Assembly: GCF_000021965.1 (NCBI RefSeq)
Contig: NC_011832.1
Location: 2,521,242 to 2,585,241 of the forward strand
Source: Methanosphaerula palustris E1-9c
GTDB lineage: Archaea; Halobacteriota; Methanomicrobia; Methanomicrobiales; Methanospirillaceae
Reading direction: 5' to 3'
Length of the DNA: 64,000 nucleotides
Shown: positions 10,770 to 20,198 of the stretch, one piece after another
Layout: every line of letters begins with the position of its first letter
Numbering within the stretch: position 1 is the stretch's first letter
The notes under the pieces: model-generated
What the model was told of the DNA's origin: nothing
What the model saw: the letters and a program-made list of their open reading frames with translations, nothing else
The model's database searches: none
Position numbers and translations under genes: made by a program

Positions 10770-11585
10770 TCAGGACTGAGGCGTTGGCATCCCGCTGCCC
10801 GGGGTGCTGTTCTGCAGGTACTTCTGGGGGATCCGGACCTCTATCGAGTACGACTGGATGTACTTGGTGTTGATGATGAAGTAGTAGTCATGGTTCCCTT
10901 CAAAGAATTTCTCGACAAACGGTCCGCCATAACTGTTCCCCGGTGGAGTGATCACCCGGACGAACCGGTTCGGGTCCTCGGCATCGACCACTTGCATCGA
11001 AAACTTTGGAACCACCACGTCAGGAGAGACTGTGGTAGTAAGGGTATACCAGATCTCGAAGTACGGGTACGGGATGTGTATTACATCGGTGGTTCCGCTC
11101 CAGCGGCCATTTATGGTCGCGAAGACCCTAGTCGTCTTGTCTGCCCCGCCATCCGGCTTCGGTACATTCATCGTTGGATAAGTATCGATCACACTGACAT
11201 TATATCGGGCGGGGTCGACGAAGGGAACCGTTTTCGGTGTGAACGATGTGGAGAGTGTCTGAGTGGTGGTGAGCCCCACAAATGGGAGGCCGGAGGGGAG
11301 AGGAGGCGTCGAATTTTCCCCAGACCCATTTCCAGAAATATTGGTTGTCGTGCCATTTCCCGATACAACTGAATTAGTATTGTTGGCCTGCGTCTGGTTC
11401 GTTGCCCCTGACTGATTGGAGGAGGTCGCCGGCGTCTGCGTTCCATTCAGGGTGGTGACAGTCGGCGTCACCGTCGGAAGGCCTGTGTTGGCAGGTTTGC
11501 CAGTAATAGCCGGTTTCACTACCAGTGCCAGGATGATCACGATTGAGAGCGCGAGGATAACATACCGGATATCCTGCTTTTCCAT
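10770..11585 (-). CDS. Hypothetical membrane-anchored extracytoplasmic protein
   Basis: A 271-residue protein of unknown function. Residues 6-26 form one hydrophobic segment (VILALSIVIILALVV), followed by a Pro/Thr and then Asn/Thr/Gly-rich linker (about 30-95) with many NxS/T sequons, and a folded-looking C-terminal domain (about 105-260) rich in Tyr, Thr and Val. This layout fits an N-terminally anchored surface protein with a glycosylated stalk. The minus-strand gene is divergent from the archaellin array (218 bp to the first archaellin start), so it may share their regulation. I do not recognise the C-terminal domain. Confidence 0.75.
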   Translation of the reverse strand: MEKQDIRYVILALSIVIILALVVKPAITGKPANTGLPTVTPTVTTLNGTQTPATSSNQSGATNQTQANNTNSVVSGNGTTTNISGNGSGENSTPPLPSGLPFVGLTTTQTLSTSFTPKTVPFVDPARYNVSVIDTYPTMNVPKPDGGADKTTRVFATINGRWSGTTDVIHIPYPYFEIWYTLTTTVSPDVVVPKFSMQVVDAEDPNRFVRVITPPGNSYGGPFVEKFFEGNHDYYFIINTKYIQSYSIEVRIPQKYLQNSTPGSGMPTPQS

Positions 11586-11727: not shown

Positions 11728-11737
11728 AAATATATAA
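11728..11737 (+). promoter_or_regulatory. TATA box of first archaellin gene
   Basis: The sequence aaatatataa lies about 66-75 nt before the ATG at 11803. This is consistent with an archaeal promoter whose transcript would begin near 11760. The second class A archaellin has a similarly placed TTTATAAG near 12730, and the segment gatatagaatacc follows both boxes, so the two leaders are related. Confidence 0.55.
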
Positions 11738-11802: not shown

Positions 11803-12396
11803 ATGAATACTATTAGAAGAAATGAAGACGCATTTACCGGCCTCGAAGCGGCAATTGTACTTATTGCATTTGTCGTCGTTGCGGCGGTGTTCTCATACGT
11901 GGTGCTGGGCGCAGGGTTCTTCACCACACAGAAGAGTCAGGAGACTGTACATACTGCTGTAGGTCAGGCATCATCAGCCATTGAGATTGTCGGTAACGTC
12001 TACGGTCAGGCAGACAATGCAGGGGACGATATAAGTTCAGTCGTCTTCAGCGTCGGCCTCGCAGCAGGCGCGACCCCAGTGGACATCAACAAGACCGTCC
12101 TGACCTTCTCAACAGGAGATACCGTAGAGACCCTGACATTCGCAGGATCAGCTGATCCCGCAGGAGCAGCAACTCCTGCAGCGGGTCAATGGGCAATTAC
12201 TCATCAGGAGAACAGCCTTGGAACAGAAAACAAGGTGCTCGACAGTGGAGAACAATTCACCATCACGGTTAAGCCAACGACAGCACTGAAGGCATACGCT
12301 GGATTTAACATCGACGTCAAGCCCGCAGTCGGAGCAGCACTTGCAATCCACAGAACTGTTCCAGCATACACCGATAAGGTGAATCTCCTCTACTAA
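11803..12396 (+). CDS. flaB: Archaellin, class A copy 1
   Basis: Major filament subunit of the archaellum. The class III signal peptide MNTIRRNEDA ends before FTGLEAAIVLIAF, and the cleavage by prearchaellin peptidase would leave the hydrophobic filament-core helix (about 11-45). The C-terminal beta domain has a conserved NKT glycosylation sequon in VDINKTVLTF. The ATG at 11803 follows AAGGTGA; an upstream in-frame GTG at 11794 lies inside that site and is unlikely. The protein is 197 residues. It is about 98% identical in DNA to copy 4 (16217-16810) through the coding region, but the flanks differ. A T-run after the stop may end transcription. Confidence 0.95.
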   Translation: MNTIRRNEDAFTGLEAAIVLIAFVVVAAVFSYVVLGAGFFTTQKSQETVHTAVGQASSAIEIVGNVYGQADNAGDDISSVVFSVGLAAGATPVDINKTVLTFSTGDTVETLTFAGSADPAGAATPAAGQWAITHQENSLGTENKVLDSGEQFTITVKPTTALKAYAGFNIDVKPAVGAALAIHRTVPAYTDKVNLLY

Positions 12397-12399
12397 TAC

Positions 12400-12406
12400 T
12401 TTTTTT
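12400..12406 (+). terminator. T-run after archaellin A1
   Basis: Seven Ts start 4 nt after the stop codon. Archaeal RNA polymerase can terminate on such runs without a hairpin. Comparable runs follow copies A2 (13397-13403), A4 (16814-16821) and A5 (18966-18973), so each archaellin is probably a separate transcription unit. Confidence 0.5.
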
Positions 12407-12803
12407 ATCCTTTCAGTGAAGGTTCTCCTAGACCCAGTTTAGGCAATTCATACCAAGGCAGACTCCGGACCGGAATCAGCACACGGTTTGATCCTCCTGA
12501 ATATTGGAAAGGTACCACCTTCCGGCGCCAGAAAATCACATTTGAGAGTGCGAAGATACTGGATTCATATATTTTGCAGTTCCTTTCATGTATTCAGTCA
12601 GGTTCGTGAATTATTTATAAAACCATAATTCTGATTACACACTAATTCGTATGGACCATTGAACTGGGAATTTCACTGATAATAAAATTGGAATAGTTCC
12701 ATAATTACGCATATTTCATATTGCAAATATTTATAAGTTATAACTACATTCAATGATATAGAATACCGGGGAAACCCTGTGTTCAGTCAAGAAGGTGAAT
12801 AGA

Positions 12804-13394
12804 ATGAAATCCATTAGAAGAAATGAAGACGCATTCACCGGTCTCGAAGCGGCAATTGTGCTTATTGCATTTGTCGTCGTTGCGGCGGTGTTCTCATACG
12901 TGGTGCTGGGCGCAGGGTTCTTCACCACACAGAAAAGTCAGGAGACTGTACATACTGCCGTAGGACAGGCATCATCAGCCATTGAGATTGTCGGAAATGT
13001 CTACGGTAAAGGCACTGCTGGGACCTCAGTTGACACGATTGTCTTCAGCATTGGCCTCGCAGCTGGAGCAACCCCAGTCGATATCAACAAGACCGTTCTG
13101 ACCTTCTCAACAGGAGATACTGTGGAAACACTGGCATTCGCAGGATCGACTACCACGGATGGATCAGGTACTGTGACAGCAGGGAAATGGGCCGTTTCCA
13201 GTCAAGATAACTCCCTTGGAACAGAAAACAAGGTGCTCGACAGTGGAGAGCAGTTCACCATCACGGCAATGCCATCAACAGCACTGAATGCATACGCTGG
13301 ATTTAACATCGACGTCAAGCCCGCAGTCGGAGCAGCACTTGCGATCCACAGAACTGTCCCGGCATATATCGATTCAGTGAACCTCCTCTACTAA
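12804..13394 (+). CDS. flaB: Archaellin, class A copy 2
   Basis: A 196-residue archaellin with signal peptide MKSIRRNEDA before FTGLEAAIVLIAF. The first 55 mature residues are nearly identical to the other class A copies, whereas the central variable part (GKGTAGTSVDTIVFSIGLA, and DNSLG later) resembles copies 3, 5 and 6 more than copies 1 and 4. The NKT sequon is kept. The ATG at 12804 follows AAGGTGA. A spacer of about 400 bp separates it from copy 1 and contains a TATA-like TTTATAAG near 12730. It is followed 192 bp later by a class B archaellin. Confidence 0.95.
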   Translation: MKSIRRNEDAFTGLEAAIVLIAFVVVAAVFSYVVLGAGFFTTQKSQETVHTAVGQASSAIEIVGNVYGKGTAGTSVDTIVFSIGLAAGATPVDINKTVLTFSTGDTVETLAFAGSTTTDGSGTVTAGKWAVSSQDNSLGTENKVLDSGEQFTITAMPSTALNAYAGFNIDVKPAVGAALAIHRTVPAYIDSVNLLY

Positions 13395-13396
13395 TC

Positions 13397-13403
13397 TTTT
13401 TTT
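13397..13403 (+). terminator. T-run after archaellin A2
   Basis: Seven Ts immediately after the stop codon, the same position as behind the other class A archaellins. Likely intrinsic archaeal termination signal. Confidence 0.45.
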
Positions 13404-13586
13404 ATTTCCAGAGATGTCTGATTCAATCGATTTTCCATCAGATACCATTGAGTGAATGGATCACCAGACAGATTCCCCTGCTCGCTCAGTTATTAAAGAG
13501 AAAACTCGAAAAGGATACACAGTAACCTATTTAGAGAACTCAGAAACTCACACTCCAATGAAGGATAAAAAGGAGATGAAACAAGG

Positions 13587-14147
13587 ATGGAAGATGCATT
13601 CACCGGACTTGAGGCTGCAATCGTTCTGATAGCCTTCGTTACGGTCAGTTCGGTCTTCTCATTTATGGTTCTGAGCGCAGGGTTTATGACCACTCAGAAA
13701 GCACAGGAGGTCGTGCATGCTGGAGTGGATCAGGCAACGAGTACCTTGCAGATACAGGGGGAAATATATGGAAGCACAGATAGTCCAGGTGGTCCGGTGA
13801 CCACGGTGACGATCATGTTGAAGACCGGGGTTCCCTTCGGGTCCGTCGATCTCAATAAAACAACATTTCATATATCAACCGATTCAACAAACGAAATCCT
13901 CCATAAGGGAACAGACCTAACCGATCCTGGACCTGGCCAGTGGACTATCCATGAACGAACGGGAGATAGCACCGGACAGACTGCTCGTCTCGGAATGAAT
14001 GATCAGATCACCGTCGAGTTGAGGCCATCATCCCCACTCCAACCAGGCAGAAGGTTTACGCTAGAAGTGAACCCGTCTGGGACCGTAGGATTTACAATTA
14101 CTCGATCAATACCAACCTCAACAGACCACATCGTTACCTTATATTGA
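13587..14147 (+). CDS. Archaellin, class B copy 1 (divergent)
   Basis: A 186-residue archaellin paralog. The filament-core segment (FTGLEAAIVLIAF, then VTVSSVFSFMV) is clearly homologous to class A, but the outer domain differs throughout except for VDLNKTTF, which keeps the NKT sequon. The in-frame start is an ATG giving only MEDA before the predicted cleavage, with no basic residue in the signal; an in-frame stop at 13566 excludes a longer form with a standard start. An AAGGAG site lies at 13570-13575, 11 nt from the ATG. Lower similarity between the leader and class A leaders suggests separate or weaker expression. It may be a minor filament component (inference). Confidence 0.88.
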   Translation: MEDAFTGLEAAIVLIAFVTVSSVFSFMVLSAGFMTTQKAQEVVHAGVDQATSTLQIQGEIYGSTDSPGGPVTTVTIMLKTGVPFGSVDLNKTTFHISTDSTNEILHKGTDLTDPGPGQWTIHERTGDSTGQTARLGMNDQITVELRPSSPLQPGRRFTLEVNPSGTVGFTITRSIPTSTDHIVTLY

Positions 14148-14266
14148 AAGAGGCTTCGTTTAGCAGGGGGATGAATCTCTGAAAAATCCGGGCTCTCTTC
14201 AGTCCAGCCGGTCTTGGATATGACAAAGATCAGTCCAAGAGGTCTTCCCAAAACTATTATCTCCAA

Positions 14267-15085
14267 TTATCCCCAGGGGTCTCCGTATGACCTTTATCGA
14301 AATTGGTGATGAACTCTGGAATCTTATTAGCCCCTTATTTCCCCCACAAAACCTCCGATGGGTCGTCCACGTTCTGATGAGCGTGGTTTGATCAATTGGC
14401 ATTCTTTACGTACTTTCCACTGGTTGCTCTTGGACTGATGTTCCTCGACAATATGGCACTAAATCTACAACACACCAGTTTCACTTGTTACTCAGTACTC
14501 AGGGAAGACATGACCAGATATTTGCCCTTATCCAAAACCAAGGTTATTATCTCTCCCAATTCGATCTCTCCTGTTGTTCGATTGATACTACCACGATCCC
14601 AGAAAAAAGAGGATTGCTAGGCTTTTACAGACTGGATCGAATTCAAGGCAGCAAAATGAGTGTTCTCGTAGAATGGCATGGTAGACCACTCGCCTACATC
14701 ATTGTTCCAGCGAACGTACATGATGCAATGACGTATCACCGACGTTAACGGTGTTCAGAATTCAAAGGCCGATTGGAAGGCCGATCACACGATCACAGGA
14801 GATTCTCGCAGATGCAGCGTACGATTCCATAGCCATCAGAACAATCAATCGTAGACGCGGAATTAAGACGATGATTCCAGTCAAACGGAGAAATCGCAGG
14901 CGACCCAAAAGAGGACGATCATATCGATTCGATCCCATGATCTACCGTTCTCAAGGAGCAGTTGAACGGTTCTTTAGTTAGGTCAAAGCATTCAGAACGA
15001 TCTCACCCAGATATGAACGGCTCGAAGAATCATTTCGAGGACTGGTCATCGTCGCCTGCATACTGATATTATGAAGACATTTGAG
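14267..15085 (+). mobile_element. IS5-type insertion sequence remnant (transposase pseudogene)
   Basis: A degenerate DDE transposase reads from the ATG at 14287 to the TGA at 15074, with frame changes and stops. Fragments in order are MTFIEIGDELWNLISPLFPP; a Trp-rich TDVPRQYGT-like region near 14430-14470; CCSIDTTTIPEKRG, RIQGSKMSVLVEWHGRPLAYI and NVHDAM; then ILADAAYDS, GIKTMIPVKRRNRRRPKRG and GAVERFFS. The D, D and E of the catalytic triad can be placed in IDTTT, ADAAYDS and AVERFF. The TAG after FFS replaces an expected Trp codon. No clear terminal inverted repeats were found. It lies between class B copy 1 and class A copy 3. Confidence 0.85.
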
Positions 15086-15109
15086 ATGATCTCCAGGATT
15101 ATCAACTGA

Positions 15110-15235
15110 AATGATCGTCAGTATAGGAATGTCCATCCTTAGTTTGAGCCGGGACATCTTTTTTAAGGGGTTCTTCCCACAACCAGTATCAATGAGATGG
15201 ACAGTTTTACCACGAACGATAATCATAGTGAAAAT
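15110..15235 (+). repeat. Inter-archaellin spacer repeat, copy 1
   Basis: This stretch downstream of the IS remnant matches 18110-18230 in the same orientation, with shared blocks such as gagccgg / aagccgg, ttcccacaacc, and atgag-aga-gg/aagaacat ahead of an AT-rich leader. The direct repeat shows that the spacer was duplicated together with archaellin genes, although the IS pieces beside the two copies point in opposite directions. It is not coding in any convincing frame. Confidence 0.65.
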
Positions 15236-15367
15236 TTTCAAATATATTTTGAAATAACCCCCATATTACTTGAATTTAAAATAGATTAACTTAAATTGTA
15301 TTGTCTCATCAAATAGGGGTAGATTAATGGATATGTGTCATATTTCCATTATTTGAAGGCGAAGAGA

Positions 15368-15958
15368 ATGAGAGATCAAATCAAAAATGAAGATGCATTT
15401 ACCGGTCTCGAAGCGGCAATTGTGCTCATTGCATTTGTCGTCGTCGCAGCAGTGTTCTCATACGTGGTGCTGGGCGCAGGGTTCTTCACCACGCAGAAGA
15501 GCCAAGAGACTGTACATACAGCCGTAGGACAGGCATCATCAGCCGTTGAGATTGTCGGAAATGTCTATGGAAAAGGTACTGCTGGAACCTCGATAGGCAC
15601 AGTCGTCTTCAGCATCGGCCTCGCAGCTGGGGCAACTTCGGTCGATATCAACAAGACCGTATTGACCTTTTCGACCGGCGAGACCATCGAAACCCTGACA
15701 TTCGCAGGATCGGCTACCCCGGATGGATCAGGAACTGTAACGGCAGGAAAATGGGCTATTACCAGGCAGGACAACTCTCTCGGAGCAGAAAATAAGGTGC
15801 TCGACAGTGGAGAGCAGTTCACCATCACGGCAATGCCATCGACAGCACTGAAGGCATACGCTGGATTTAATATCGATGTCAAACCAGCAGTCGGAGCAGC
15901 ACTCGCAATCCACAGGACCGTCCCGGCGTACATCGATGCAGTGAACCTCCTCTACTAA
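15368..15958 (+). CDS. flaB: Archaellin, class A copy 3
   Basis: A 196-residue archaellin with signal peptide MRDQIKNEDA. The core helix and QETVHTAVGQASSA segment are the same as in the other class A genes; the variable domain has TAGTSIGTVVFS and the NKT sequon. The ATG at 15368 follows GAAGGCGA, a leader shared with copy 5 (TTGAAGGCGAAGAGAATG), unlike the AAGGTGA leaders of copies 1, 2, 4 and 6. An in-frame upstream TTG/ATG extension to 15335 lacks a ribosome binding site. It is the first gene after the IS5 remnant. Confidence 0.95.
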   Translation: MRDQIKNEDAFTGLEAAIVLIAFVVVAAVFSYVVLGAGFFTTQKSQETVHTAVGQASSAVEIVGNVYGKGTAGTSIGTVVFSIGLAAGATSVDINKTVLTFSTGETIETLTFAGSATPDGSGTVTAGKWAITRQDNSLGAENKVLDSGEQFTITAMPSTALKAYAGFNIDVKPAVGAALAIHRTVPAYIDAVNLLY

Positions 15959-16216
15959 TACTTTTTTACTTACTCGATCTTGAAGAAGACTTAACCAACA
16001 GGAAGAAAGAGGTTTAGATGGAGTGTCCGCTGCCCATCTGTGCATTCCAAGGACCATATACACCCATAATGACCTATCAACTGGCCATTTTCTTTAGATT
16101 CTATAAATATCCACATAAATTAATTATTCACAATAGAATAATATAAATATTATAATAACCTCAATAGTAATTAGAATATCAGAGTGATCTGGTGTTCAGT
16201 CAAGAAGGTGAACACG

Positions 16217-16810
16217 ATGAAATCTATTAAAAGAAACGAAGACGCATTTACCGGCCTCGAAGCGGCAATTGTACTTATTGCATTTGTCGTCGTTGCGGCG
16301 GTGTTCTCATACGTGGTGCTGGGCGCAGGGTTCTTCACCACACAGAAGAGTCAGGAGACTGTACATACTGCTGTAGGTCAGGCATCATCAGCCATTGAGA
16401 TTGTTGGTAACGTCTACGGTCAGGCAGACACTGCAGGGGGCGATATAAGTTCAGTCGTCTTCAGCGTTGGCCTCGCAGCAGGCGCGACCCCAGTGGACAT
16501 CAACAAGACCGTCCTGACCTTCTCAACAGGAGATACCGTAGAGACCCTAACATTCGCAGGATCAGCTGATCCCGCAGGAGCAGCAACTCCAACAGCGGGT
16601 CAATGGGCAATTACCCATCAGGAGAACAGCCTTGGAACAGAAAACAAGGTGCTCGACAGTGGAGAACAATTCACCATCACAGTTAAGCCGACGACAGCAC
16701 TGAAGGCATACGCTGGATTTAACATCGACGTCAAGCCCGCAGTCGGAGCAGCACTTGCAATCCACAGAACTGTTCCAGCATACACCGATAAGGTGAATCT
16801 CCTCTACTAA
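16217..16810 (+). CDS. flaB: Archaellin, class A copy 4 (near-identical to copy 1)
   Basis: A 197-residue archaellin. Outside the signal peptide (MKSIKRNEDA versus MNTIRRNEDA) it differs from copy 1 at only about three amino acids (for example QADTAGGD versus QADNAGDD, TPTAG versus TPAAG). DNA identity falls away immediately after the stop codon and upstream of the ribosome binding site, which points to gene conversion rather than recent segmental duplication. The ATG at 16217 follows AAGGTGA. The NKT sequon is kept. Confidence 0.95.
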   Translation: MKSIKRNEDAFTGLEAAIVLIAFVVVAAVFSYVVLGAGFFTTQKSQETVHTAVGQASSAIEIVGNVYGQADTAGGDISSVVFSVGLAAGATPVDINKTVLTFSTGDTVETLTFAGSADPAGAATPTAGQWAITHQENSLGTENKVLDSGEQFTITVKPTTALKAYAGFNIDVKPAVGAALAIHRTVPAYTDKVNLLY

Positions 16811-16813
16811 TAC

Positions 16814-16821
16814 TTTTTTTT
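16814..16821 (+). terminator. T-run after archaellin A4
   Basis: Eight Ts four bases after the stop codon, equivalent to the runs behind copies 1, 2 and 5. Confidence 0.45.
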
Positions 16822-17042
16822 ATTTCCAGACCCTTGTTGTAGCAGTTAATCAAAGAGAACAAATACGCAATCATGAAATGATTCTGGTTCTACCGATTAT
16901 CTTTCGAATAACAAAATAGATCATCCGATCCCCTACTCAATCCACCACTAAAGAGATACCTCGAAATGGATAAGCATCAATCTTATGAGATAACCATTGG
17001 AACCCACCTTCGAGAGAAGGTCCATAGGGAGATGAAAGAGAG

Positions 17043-17603
17043 ATGGAAGATGCATTCACTGGACTTGAGGCTGCAATCGTTCTGATAGCCTTTGTCACAG
17101 TAGGTTCGGTCTTCTCATTTATGGTTCTGAACGCAGGGTTCGTAACCACCCAGAAGGCACAGGAAGTAGTACATACTGGAGGAAGCGAGGCTGCGATTAC
17201 CCTCCAAATCCATGGAGATATCTATGGCAGCGCCGATAGTTCAGGGGGACCGGTGACCATGATAACGATGATGCTGAAGGCTGGGGTTCCCTCGAGTTCC
17301 ATCGATCTCAACAAAACCACATTCCATATCTCAACCGATTCGACAAACGAGATCCTCCAAAAGGGAACGGATCTGTCGGATCCCTCCCCAGGACAGTGGA
17401 CAATTCACGAACGATTCAGTGAGAACAACGGACAGATCTCTCGTCTCGGACCCAATGACCTGGTTACCATAGAGATCAGACCTTCATCCCCACTCCCCCC
17501 AGGTAAAAGATTCACACTGGAAGTGAACCCGACCGGAGCAACAGGTTTTGTCATAACACGATCAATACCTACCTCAACAGACCATATGATCGTCTTATAT
17601 TGA
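17043..17603 (+). CDS. Archaellin, class B copy 2 (divergent)
   Basis: A 186-residue partner of class B copy 1 (about three quarters of residues shared by eye). It has the same four-residue signal MEDA before FTGLEAAIVLIAF, again with no basic residues, the VTVGSVFSFMV core, IDLNKTTFHIS with the NKT sequon, and the ending ITRSIPTSTDHM-VLY. Like copy 1 it follows a class A gene (232 bp after copy 4) and lies before IS-derived DNA, so A-B-IS-A is a repeated block. GGGAGATGAAAGAG supplies a plausible ribosome binding region. Confidence 0.88.
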   Translation: MEDAFTGLEAAIVLIAFVTVGSVFSFMVLNAGFVTTQKAQEVVHTGGSEAAITLQIHGDIYGSADSSGGPVTMITMMLKAGVPSSSIDLNKTTFHISTDSTNEILQKGTDLSDPSPGQWTIHERFSENNGQISRLGPNDLVTIEIRPSSPLPPGKRFTLEVNPTGATGFVITRSIPTSTDHMIVLY

Positions 17604-17960
17604 TGAGTGTGGGGCCTCAGCAAAAAGCAGAATCTCAGAAATATTCCTGCCATCCCCTTCCGGATTCGAACCTGAATTGATGTTCAGACATCTGATCCCT
17701 TTTTTTGGCTCTGATGAAATGCTTCAACTATGATGACAATCACTACAGATTGAACTACCTTCGTGAGGTTATAGAGGATCATTTTGACCTTGATCTCATT
17801 GACCTGTTACCAATTTTTTCGTGCCTTCAAGTCATCTCCGTAGCGTGCCAAAAGTGATGTAAAGTAAAAATACCCTGTATTCAACCTAGAATTGCGTGAA
17901 AGGTGAAACAGGGCCATGATACCATTATCATTTATCGAAGAACTCATCCCAAAAGTCTCC
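17604..17960. other. Non-coding spacer with a short uncertain ORF
   Basis: No convincing gene is present between class B copy 2 and the inverted IS fragment. One forward frame from 17718 reads 47 codons beginning MKCFNYDDNHYRLNYLREVI and ending near 17861. It looks protein-like at its start but is short and unmatched, so it may be the broken N-terminus of another transposase or a chance ORF. Confidence 0.4.
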
Positions 17961-18102
17961 ATAGTATCAGTATGCAGGCGACGATGACCAGTCCTCAAAA
18001 TGATTCTTCGAGCCGTTCATATCTGGGTGAGATCGTTCTGAATGCTTTGACCTAACTAAAGAACCGTTCAACTGCTCCTTGAGAACGGTAGATCATGGGA
18101 TC
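17961..18102 (-). mobile_element. Inverted fragment of the same IS5-type transposase
   Basis: About 140 bp are the near-exact reverse complement of 14930-15070, covering the transposase C-terminus from the DPMIYRSQGAVERFFS segment to the end. It keeps the same premature TAG after FFS that the forward copy has. So the two fragments share an already-damaged ancestor, or have exchanged sequence since the damage. Only the 3' end survives here. Confidence 0.88.
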
Positions 18103-18109
18103 TTCACCG

Positions 18110-18230
18110 ATATGACTGCCCCGATAGAGATATTCACCCTTGATTCAAGCCGGATTCAACACATAAGAAGTGTACTTCCCACAACCTGCTTTAATGAGAA
18201 GAACATTTTATCCCAAAATCAATAATCCTG
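18110..18230 (+). repeat. Inter-archaellin spacer repeat, copy 2
   Basis: Direct, diverged copy of 15110-15235 located in front of class A copy 5, just as the first copy precedes class A copy 3. The AT-rich leader and GAAGGCGA ribosome binding region that follow are also shared. Confidence 0.6.
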
Positions 18231-18370
18231 GCGATTAACTACTACTAAAATCTTAAAATATCACCATATATCATTAATCTAAAATGGATTAGTTTAAATA
18301 TTAATATCACATTAGTAATGAATAGAATACTGAATAGTTTCGGTATTCCTATTTGTTGAAGGCGAAGAGA

Positions 18371-18961
18371 ATGAAATCTCTAATCAGGAATGAAGATGCA
18401 TTCACCGGTCTCGAAGCGGCAATTGTGCTCATCGCATTTGTCGTTGTTGCGGCGGTGTTCTCATACGTGGTGCTGGGCGCAGGGTTCTTCACCACACAGA
18501 AGAGCCAAGAGACTGTACATACTGCCGTAGGACAGGCTTCATCAGCCGTTGAGGTTGTAGGCAATGTCTACGGAGAAGGTACTGCTGGAACTTCGGTTGA
18601 TACAATCGTCTTCAGCATCGCCCTCGCCGCAGGGGCAACCTCGGTTGATATTAATAAAACTGTATTGACCTTTTCAACCGGTGATACCGTCGAAACACTG
18701 ACATTCGCGGGTTCTGGTTCAACAGATGGAGCAGGTACCGTAACAGCAGGGAAATGGGCAATTACCGGACAGGATAACTCCCTTGGAGCAAAGAATAAGG
18801 TGCTCGACAGTGGAGAACAGTTCACCATCACTGCAATGCCATCAGCAGCACTGAATGCATACGCTGGATTTAATATCGATGTCAAGCCTGCAGTCGGAGC
18901 AGCTCTAGCAATCCACAGGACCGTGCCGGCATACATCGATGCAGTGAACCTCCTCTATTAA
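18371..18961 (+). CDS. flaB: Archaellin, class A copy 5
   Basis: A 196-residue archaellin with signal MKSLIRNEDA before FTGLEAAIVLIAF. It resembles copy 3 in the leader and the central domain, and differs mainly in short stretches (EGTAGTSVDTIVFSIALA, GSGSTDGAGT, GAKNKV). The NKT sequon is present. The ATG at 18371 follows GAAGGCGA; an in-frame extension to 18353 is less likely. A run of eight Ts follows the stop. Confidence 0.95.
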   Translation: MKSLIRNEDAFTGLEAAIVLIAFVVVAAVFSYVVLGAGFFTTQKSQETVHTAVGQASSAVEVVGNVYGEGTAGTSVDTIVFSIALAAGATSVDINKTVLTFSTGDTVETLTFAGSGSTDGAGTVTAGKWAITGQDNSLGAKNKVLDSGEQFTITAMPSAALNAYAGFNIDVKPAVGAALAIHRTVPAYIDAVNLLY

Positions 18962-18965
18962 TCCC

Positions 18966-18973
18966 TTTTTTTT
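18966..18973 (+). terminator. T-run after archaellin A5
   Basis: Eight Ts five bases after the stop codon, equivalent to those behind other class A copies. Confidence 0.45.
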
Positions 18974-19042
18974 ACCAATTCAGTCTGTATTGTGACTGAA
19001 GATCAAAGACGTCTTCCTAAACCAATTATCAGATCTTTATTT

Positions 19043-19125
19043 CCCTGGACCTCCGTACGACTTTCGTCAGATTGATGATGAACTTAAAAATATAATCCGC
19101 TCTACTCCAAAATTCTTCAAAGGAT
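19043..19125 (+). mobile_element. Decayed 5' end of an IS5-type transposase
   Basis: The stretch around cctccgtacgactttcgtca, then gatgatgaact, aligns with the left part of the IS remnant at 14279-14330 (tctccgtatgacctttatcg, then gtgatgaact). The preceding bases (ccaattat) also match. It is too diverged and short to code. It marks a third IS trace inside the array. Confidence 0.55.
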
Positions 19126-19261
19126 CTGACAGGTCAACTCATACACAAACATAAGTCGCGAGTTCCACCAAACATGAAGTCCCCCTTGGACGTTGCATGG
19201 GTCCACTATGAGAATACGCACATCCACCTATTAAAAAATGATTAGGAACATACCAGCCACA

Positions 19262-19350
19262 CAGCAGCAATTATATTCTACATCCGTCGATATCGCTAGC
19301 GGTGCTCTCATACGTTGTGCTTGGCGCAGGGCCCTCTACCACACTGAAGA
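19262..19350 (+). pseudogene. Archaellin fragment (signal and core helix region)
   Basis: About 85 bp can be aligned with the archaellin core-helix coding region: gcagcaatt near the start, then gcggtgctctcatacgttgt, gcttggcgcaggg and accacactgaagag. The equivalents in intact genes are gcggcaatt, gcggtgttctcatacgtggt, gctgggcgcaggg and accacacagaagag. Indels and stops break the frame, and no start or C-terminal domain remains. It is a ninth, dead archaellin locus between copies 5 and 6. Confidence 0.7.
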
Positions 19351-19528
19351 GAAAAACGGATTCCACCAACAGAAAAAAATGCTGTTTCAACGTAACACAA
19401 TATGCAATTTGTGAAATGAAATTAGATATCGACGATGCAGTATAAATAATTTTAAATAGTAAAATATCAATTTATTCTATATATTAATCATCCATTTTGA
19501 TCTCCCATAAAGACAGAAGGTGACCAGA

Positions 19529-20131
19529 ATGAATCTCTCCATCGGATCTGCAACAAATAATGAAGCCGCGTTCACCGGTCTCGAAGCGGCAATAGTACTG
19601 ATTGCGTTTGTCGTCGTCGCATCAACCTTCACCTACGTAGTGCTGGGTGCAGGGTTCTTCACCACACAGAAAAGTCAGGAGACTGTACATACTGCCGTGG
19701 GACAGGCATCATCAGCTGTTGAGATTGTGGGTAATGTCTATGGAAAAGGCATTGCTGGCACATCGATCGACACGATCGTATTCAGTATCGGTCTCGCTGC
19801 AGGGGCAACCCCGGTGGATCTCAATAAAACCGTATTGACCTTTTCTACGGGTGATACTATTGAGACACTGGCATTCGCTGGATCCGGTTCAACAGATGGA
19901 TCAGGTACAGTCACAGCAGGGAAATGGGCAATTTCAAGCCAGGACAACTCCCTTGGGGCAGAAAACAAGGTGCTCGACAGCGGGGAACAGTTCACCATCA
20001 CAGCAATGCCATCTACAGCGCTGAATGCCTATGCTGGGTTTAATATCGATGTCAAGCCCGCAGCAGGAGCGGCCCTTGCGATCCACAGGACCGTACCGGC
20101 ATACATCGATGCAGTGAACCTTCTTTATTAA
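19529..20131 (+). CDS. flaB: Archaellin, class A copy 6
   Basis: A 200-residue archaellin with a longer and less basic signal peptide (MNLSIGSATNNEAA) before FTGLEAAIVLIAF. The core has VVVASTFTYVVLGAGF, so it is the most diverged class A copy in this segment, while the outer domain is close to copies 2, 3 and 5. The NKT sequon is kept. The ATG at 19529 follows AAGGTGA; a GTG at 19520 lies within that site. It is the last gene of the array and converges on the acetolactate synthase operon. Confidence 0.95.
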   Translation: MNLSIGSATNNEAAFTGLEAAIVLIAFVVVASTFTYVVLGAGFFTTQKSQETVHTAVGQASSAVEIVGNVYGKGIAGTSIDTIVFSIGLAAGATPVDLNKTVLTFSTGDTIETLAFAGSGSTDGSGTVTAGKWAISSQDNSLGAENKVLDSGEQFTITAMPSTALNAYAGFNIDVKPAAGAALAIHRTVPAYIDAVNLLY

Positions 20132-20198
20132 CCCTATTTTTATTATTCAAAAAAAAGAGTATAAACAAAAAATTATCAGAGAATTAGGAGAGGCTGGC

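Follow-up and report, generated by a model that had tools for sequence, protein, structure and literature searches.

The stretch of DNA analysed here (the window, 64,000 nucleotides corresponding to bases 2521242–2585241 of the complete 2,922,917-bp genome of Methanosphaerula palustris E1-9c) contains at positions 11803–20131 an array of eight intact archaellin genes, six of type A and two of type B, all on the forward strand, together with a decayed ninth archaellin and three remnants of insertion sequences (IS). We suggest that the array comprises six separately transcribed genes for major A archaellins and genes for a minor B subunit, that it expanded from one A–B pair, and that its products are assembled by one distant motor. 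Judging from the sequence, we give this reading a probability of roughly 60%.

Organization of the array

The type A genes are A1 (11803–12396, 197 amino acids, E = 9.6e-37 against the archaellin profile PF01917), A2 (12804–13394, 196 amino acids, E = 1.7e-35), A3 (15368–15958, 196 amino acids, E = 1.1e-33), A4 (16217–16810, 197 amino acids), A5 (18371–18961, 196 amino acids, E = 1.0e-34), and A6 (19529–20131, 200 amino acids, E = 2.0e-33), the last being the most divergent A gene and the one with the longest leader. For A3 the ATG start is used; a possible alternative GTG lies upstream at 15335. The type B genes B1 (13587–14147, E = 4.5e-25) and B2 (17043–17603, E = 6.2e-26) each code for 186 amino acids. 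At the protein level the A archaellins are 79–97% identical to each other and B1 is 76% identical to B2, with 39–43% identity between B and A. A ninth intact archaellin gene of type B, B3, stands alone at G000:C1:914063 (L009:7995–8564, reverse strand), about 1.6 Mb from the array by coordinate and among unrelated genes. The eight array genes and B3 score 88.9–127.5 bits with PF01917, all above the curated cut-off of 29.5 bits, and none of the eight open reading frames of the array contains an internal stop. The preliminary description of this DNA, which had reported an array of eight archaellin genes, is thus confirmed on this point.

Origin by duplication of an A–B pair

At the syntenic place of the array, the two nearest relatives compared (L021 and L022) carry exactly one A–B archaellin pair with the same neighbors as in the window, namely rps13, the next gene, and the divergently oriented gene of hyp10770, a surface protein described below. 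No further archaellins were found in these two genomes, whose completeness is not stated, except for a weak 42-bit match in G188 which resembles the ArlF/G match of the M. palustris genome. The closest archaellins to the A proteins are the first genes of both pairs (60–61% identity), those closest to the B proteins are the second genes, and in the phylogenetic tree the A archaellins join gene 1 (ultrafast bootstrap, UFBoot, 100) and the B archaellins gene 2 (UFBoot 98), by which two types of ancient separation are seen to be kept side by side. Because the relatives hold a single pair and the A and B clades join its first and second genes, we conclude that the locus expanded from one gene of each type to six of type A and two of type B, with a third B gene elsewhere.

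The comparison of the array with itself gave the off-diagonal similarity expected from the tandem block duplication that had been proposed. The A2–B1 block (12779–14147) and the A4–B2 block (16192–17603) are 78% identical in DNA over 1,419 columns, and A3 with its spacer (15170–15967) is 83% identical to A5 with its spacer (18172–18970) over 800 columns. These block identities, together with the single pair at the syntenic place in the relatives, bear out the duplication. In addition, A1 and A2 with their upstream regions are 80% identical over 0.9 kb. The proposed correspondence of A2–B1–IS–A3 with A4–B2–inverted IS–A5 holds for the blocks as such; the IS pieces lie outside the duplicated unit and A2 and A4 correspond by position only, as the body of the A4 gene is A1-like (97%) and not A2-like.

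A1 and A4 share 97% DNA identity over 634 bp with sharp edges, reaching from about 30 nucleotides before the start to about 10 nucleotides past the stop codon. Their flanks of 120 and 108 nucleotides are only 41% and 53% identical, and the upstream region of A4 resembles those of A2, A3, and A5 (63–66%). The best reading of this near-identity is one recent whole-gene conversion. Ongoing intragenic gene conversion was considered and rejected, as 93 silent polymorphic codons, examined with a permutation test of the GENECONV type, yielded no significant tract within the genes for any pair (all global P >= 0.65). Near their N-terminal ends the genes vary less at synonymous sites than they do in the middle (P = 0.004), a pattern which codon bias could produce.

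Regulatory layout

All six A genes have a TATA-like box within –82 to –68, with starts at –72 to –78, where 0.64 of six would be expected in composition-matched shuffles. As matches to the consensus, the boxes are found at 11731–11736 (A1, –72), 12730–12735 (A2, –74), 15290–15296 (A3, –78), 16142–16147 (A4, –75), 18293–18299 (A5, –78), and 19451–19457 (A6, –78), and both relatives have TTAAATA, at –83 in L021 and –82 in L022. Likewise, a terminator-like run of 5–8 T begins 3–6 nucleotides after the stop codon of each A gene: T7 after A1 (12400–12406) and A2 (13397–13403), T6 after A3 (15962–15967), T8 after A4 (16814–16821) and A5 (18966–18973), and T5 after A6 (20137–20141). A T6 run occurs within 20 nucleotides downstream at 0.5% of the window positions. 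Neither a TATA-like box nor a poly-T run was detected at B1 and B2; in both relatives a poly-T run is located between the A and the B gene. In Thermococcales, the most abundant archaellin gene has the strongest poly-T behind it (PMC10665913). By analogy, we infer that the A archaellins are the major and the B archaellins the minor subunits.

The subunits and the motor

A class III signal peptide with a predicted G/LE cleavage site is present in all eight proteins: seven have the sequence EDAFTG/LEAAIVLIAF, and A6 has EAAFTG before the site. The leaders of B1 and B2 (positions 13587 and 17043) consist of the seven residues MEDAFTG without any basic residue and are shorter than those of all tabulated homologues (minimum 8). 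The archaellin fold, an N-terminal helix followed by a beta-sandwich head, is supported by the AlphaFold model of A2, which matches the archaellum structures 9i5h, 7txi, 7ofq, and 5tfy (E <= 3.3e-11, best E = 3.6e-13). The differences among the A proteins are concentrated in the head, at 41 of 139 positions compared with 3 of 44 positions of the N-terminal core helix (P = 0.002). Wherever two genes differ enough for a measurement, the ratio of nonsynonymous to synonymous substitution rates (dN/dS) is well below 1. This holds for A pairs other than A1/A4, for example, dN 0.06 and dS 1.22 for the middle of A2 and A6, and dS between these copies ranges from about 0.2 to above 1.

Motor genes are absent beside the array, as had been noted. 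The genome has a complete motor and stator set (ArlCDE, F, G, H, I, and J) in an intact operon with CheF and CheY/CheB-like genes at about 1.97–1.98 Mb (G000:C1, L010), about 550 kb away. ArlJ, ArlI, and ArlH match NCBIfam models above cut-off; for ArlF/G the matches are weak and below cut-off, and ArlG and ArlCDE were placed by synteny. In the literature searched we found no report on motility or filament composition of M. palustris.

Proposed mode of expansion and filament assembly

We propose that the eight genes of the array, six A and two B, arose from one A–B pair by tandem duplication and that the insertion of IS elements, the decay of a copy, and the A1/A4 conversion came later. Each A gene would be transcribed independently, from its own TATA-like box to its own poly-T terminator, and the B genes would most likely depend on transcripts running on from A2 and A4 or on a weak promoter. 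The near-equivalent major A subunits and the minor, divergent B subunit might be made together or in condition-dependent ratios and would be processed at the FTG/LE site; their assembly would take place in trans, at the single ArlCDE-F-G-H-I-J motor. The product would be mixed filaments with a common core and differing outer surfaces; there is precedent for an archaellum that is a heteropolymer of two archaellins (PMC8821640). A more specific version of this proposal, which we put forward only tentatively, is a heterogeneous archaellum in which six A isoforms, co-expressed from separate promoters, are interleaved with minor B, so that one motor would make filaments of tunable composition (for stiffness, adhesion, or virus resistance); amplification across the order would proceed by the two-gene pair.

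Several points weigh against the proposed mixed filament. The same single NKT sequon is present in all nine archaellins, and thus in all A proteins, and the isoelectric point is 4.5–4.7 in five of the six A proteins (5.0 in A3). As the sequon is the same and the isoelectric point nearly so, the six A copies may be redundant and serve dosage only. The TATA-like boxes and poly-T runs were called by matching to a consensus, are partly inherited by homology, and do not represent six independent tests, and the list of TATA motifs was picked after the sequences had been seen. Furthermore, the trees did not settle whether the A/B split matches the gene-1 and gene-2 clades found across the order.

Alternative explanations

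The A genes could be condition-specific paralogs ("ecoparalogs"), which are switched on in different environments via differing leaders and form nearly homopolymeric filaments. There is a precedent in the salt-dependent FlaA2 and FlaB of Haloarcula marismortui (PMC6528647), and the array does contain three classes of leaders, A1/A2/A4, A3/A5, and A6, the matching leaders of A3 and A5 having been described before. However, charge, size, and glycosylation motif are nearly constant among the A proteins, and the leader classes cut across the main split of the proteins, A1/A4 versus the rest, as A2 has the A1/A4 leader. We regard this explanation as unlikely.

It is also rather improbable, in our judgement, that the expansion is a matter of gene dosage or nearly neutral, with copies arising by unequal crossing-over and being kept for more subunit or simply not yet decayed. 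The high protein identity of the A copies, the decayed copy, the IS remnants in the spacers, and the archaellin number in related genomes, which ranges from 0 to 14, would suit such a process; on the contrary, the dS values given above, together with dN/dS far below 1, imply a long-term constraint on each copy and not a recent amplification.

A silent-cassette reservoir, in which conversion from the other copies would vary a single expressed gene, perhaps as a defence against viruses using the archaellum, would agree with the sharp-edged A1/A4 identity and the reduced N-terminal synonymous variation, but appears most improbable. No significant mosaic tract was found within the genes, every copy is full length with start and leader instead of being a truncated promoterless donor, the A genes carry a TATA-like box and a terminator, features absent from cassettes, and the open reading frames of the array included no noticeable recombinase gene.

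The preliminary description had regarded the array as a reservoir of subunits for switching or for mixing. With all copies intact, purifying selection in most pairs, and the promoter- and terminator-like signals of the A genes, switching in the sense of silent cassettes is not upheld; mixing of subunits would fit these sequences better.

Comparison with other archaellin loci

To place the array in its order we use a survey of 159 Methanomicrobiales genomes of at least 85% completeness, in which genomes with eight or more PF01917 matches were inspected for runs. The number of PF01917 matches per genome ranges from 0 to 15; M. palustris has 10, namely the nine archaellins and one protein of ArlF/G type. 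The longest other run in the order consists of six archaellin genes (G104, also L080), in agreement with the earlier statement that runs normally hold two to four archaellins and that the array exceeds this number. The array does not make M. palustris the genome with most archaellins, a possibility we rejected, as relatives carry up to 14 (G065, 14 matches to the archaellin model). The complete or near-complete genomes G064–G067 of genus g12 have 11–14 archaellin-alignment matches, which are mostly stand-alone and scattered, a layout opposite to that of the array.

Nine archaellin paralogs in M. palustris were already published in 2016 (Makarova et al., PMC4858521), and the eight array genes and B3 agree with this number. 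In its relevant passages that study gives the number of paralogs and states that such genes are sometimes found in a different locus and often stand alone; these passages do not contain the block structure, the A and B types, or the regulatory layout described here. What is distinctive is the length and the layout of the run, as the copy number is already in print.

Across the order, archaellin genes are usually located directly upstream of the motor operon and often form a pair, of which the first and second genes fall into separate clades (33 proteins with support 1.00 and 34 proteins with support 0.92). Loci with multiple archaellins (arlB/flaB) in Methanomicrobiales and other Euryarchaeota likewise have tandem PF01917 genes, class III signal peptides, a common N-terminal core, and poly-T behind the genes; Thermococcus kodakarensis, for example, has five archaellin genes in tandem (PMC10665913). 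In contrast to these loci, the present one strings together eight intact genes, more than any other run in the survey; its A genes have separate promoter-like boxes, and the motor operon is not adjacent. Methanocaldococcus villosus also has two divergent types side by side, ArlB1 and ArlB2, which form a heteropolymer (PMC8821640, PDB 7ofq), whereas the M. palustris array holds six genes of type A and two of type B. In Methanospirillum hungatei (PDB 5tfy; PMC4704411), a member of the same order, the archaellin genes are likewise unlinked to the motor cluster, yet there are three FlaB genes compared with nine archaellins here. The run of six archaellins in Methanocalculus chunghsingensis (L080:5998–9567) is, as in M. 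palustris, an amplified two-gene unit beside a hyp10770 homologue; unlike the array it shows a strict 1-2-1-2-1-2 alternation of the order-wide types and lies directly upstream of the motor operon.

Many archaea keep several archaellin genes, and for the question of why they do so the locus described here is a clean case: the direction of its change is known, its transcription units look separable, and one motor would serve it in trans. Beyond the published copy number, it offers a layout, an ancestry, and testable predictions.

IS remnants and the neighboring gene hyp10770

The spacer between B1 and A3 contains a degenerate copy of an IS transposase on the forward strand (14296–15089, with a trace of similarity from 14234 on), which is 89% identical to G000:C1:2317693–2318474 and whose reading frame is interrupted by stops. 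A fragment on the reverse strand in the B2–A5 spacer (17944–18115) is 95% identical to 14919–15089 in inverted orientation. The two pieces thus have opposite orientations, and they resemble each other more closely than the duplicated blocks do (78–83%). They therefore do not simply belong to the unit that was duplicated, and for the same reasons we rejected the idea that the IS brought about the block duplication; we infer that the pieces came in, or were converted, after the duplication. The decayed archaellin and the IS trace reported between A5 and A6 could both be recovered by blastn: the trace (19003–19084, forward strand) is 72% identical to 14234–14315 (E = 2.8e-5), and the N-terminal archaellin remnant (19234–19351, forward strand) matches A3 with E = 2.9e-11 and has a core of 53 bp with 85% identity to A1, A4, and A5.

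The array also draws attention to hyp10770 (10770–11585, reverse strand, 271 amino acids), an uncharacterized surface protein which travels with archaellins through the order as a conserved, divergently oriented neighbor. It is composed of a transmembrane helix, a disordered linker rich in P, T, and S, and a C-terminal beta-sandwich; by sequence it has no match in Pfam, NCBIfam, or PDB, and a fold search gave weak matches to beta-sandwiches (GOLD/CUB-like). Homologues lie divergently beside archaellin genes at about 45 loci of the order. Among the 159 genomes, 133 have both archaellins and hyp10770, five archaellins only, three hyp10770 only, and 18 neither, counts in which three unlisted genomes are assumed and kinship is not corrected for.

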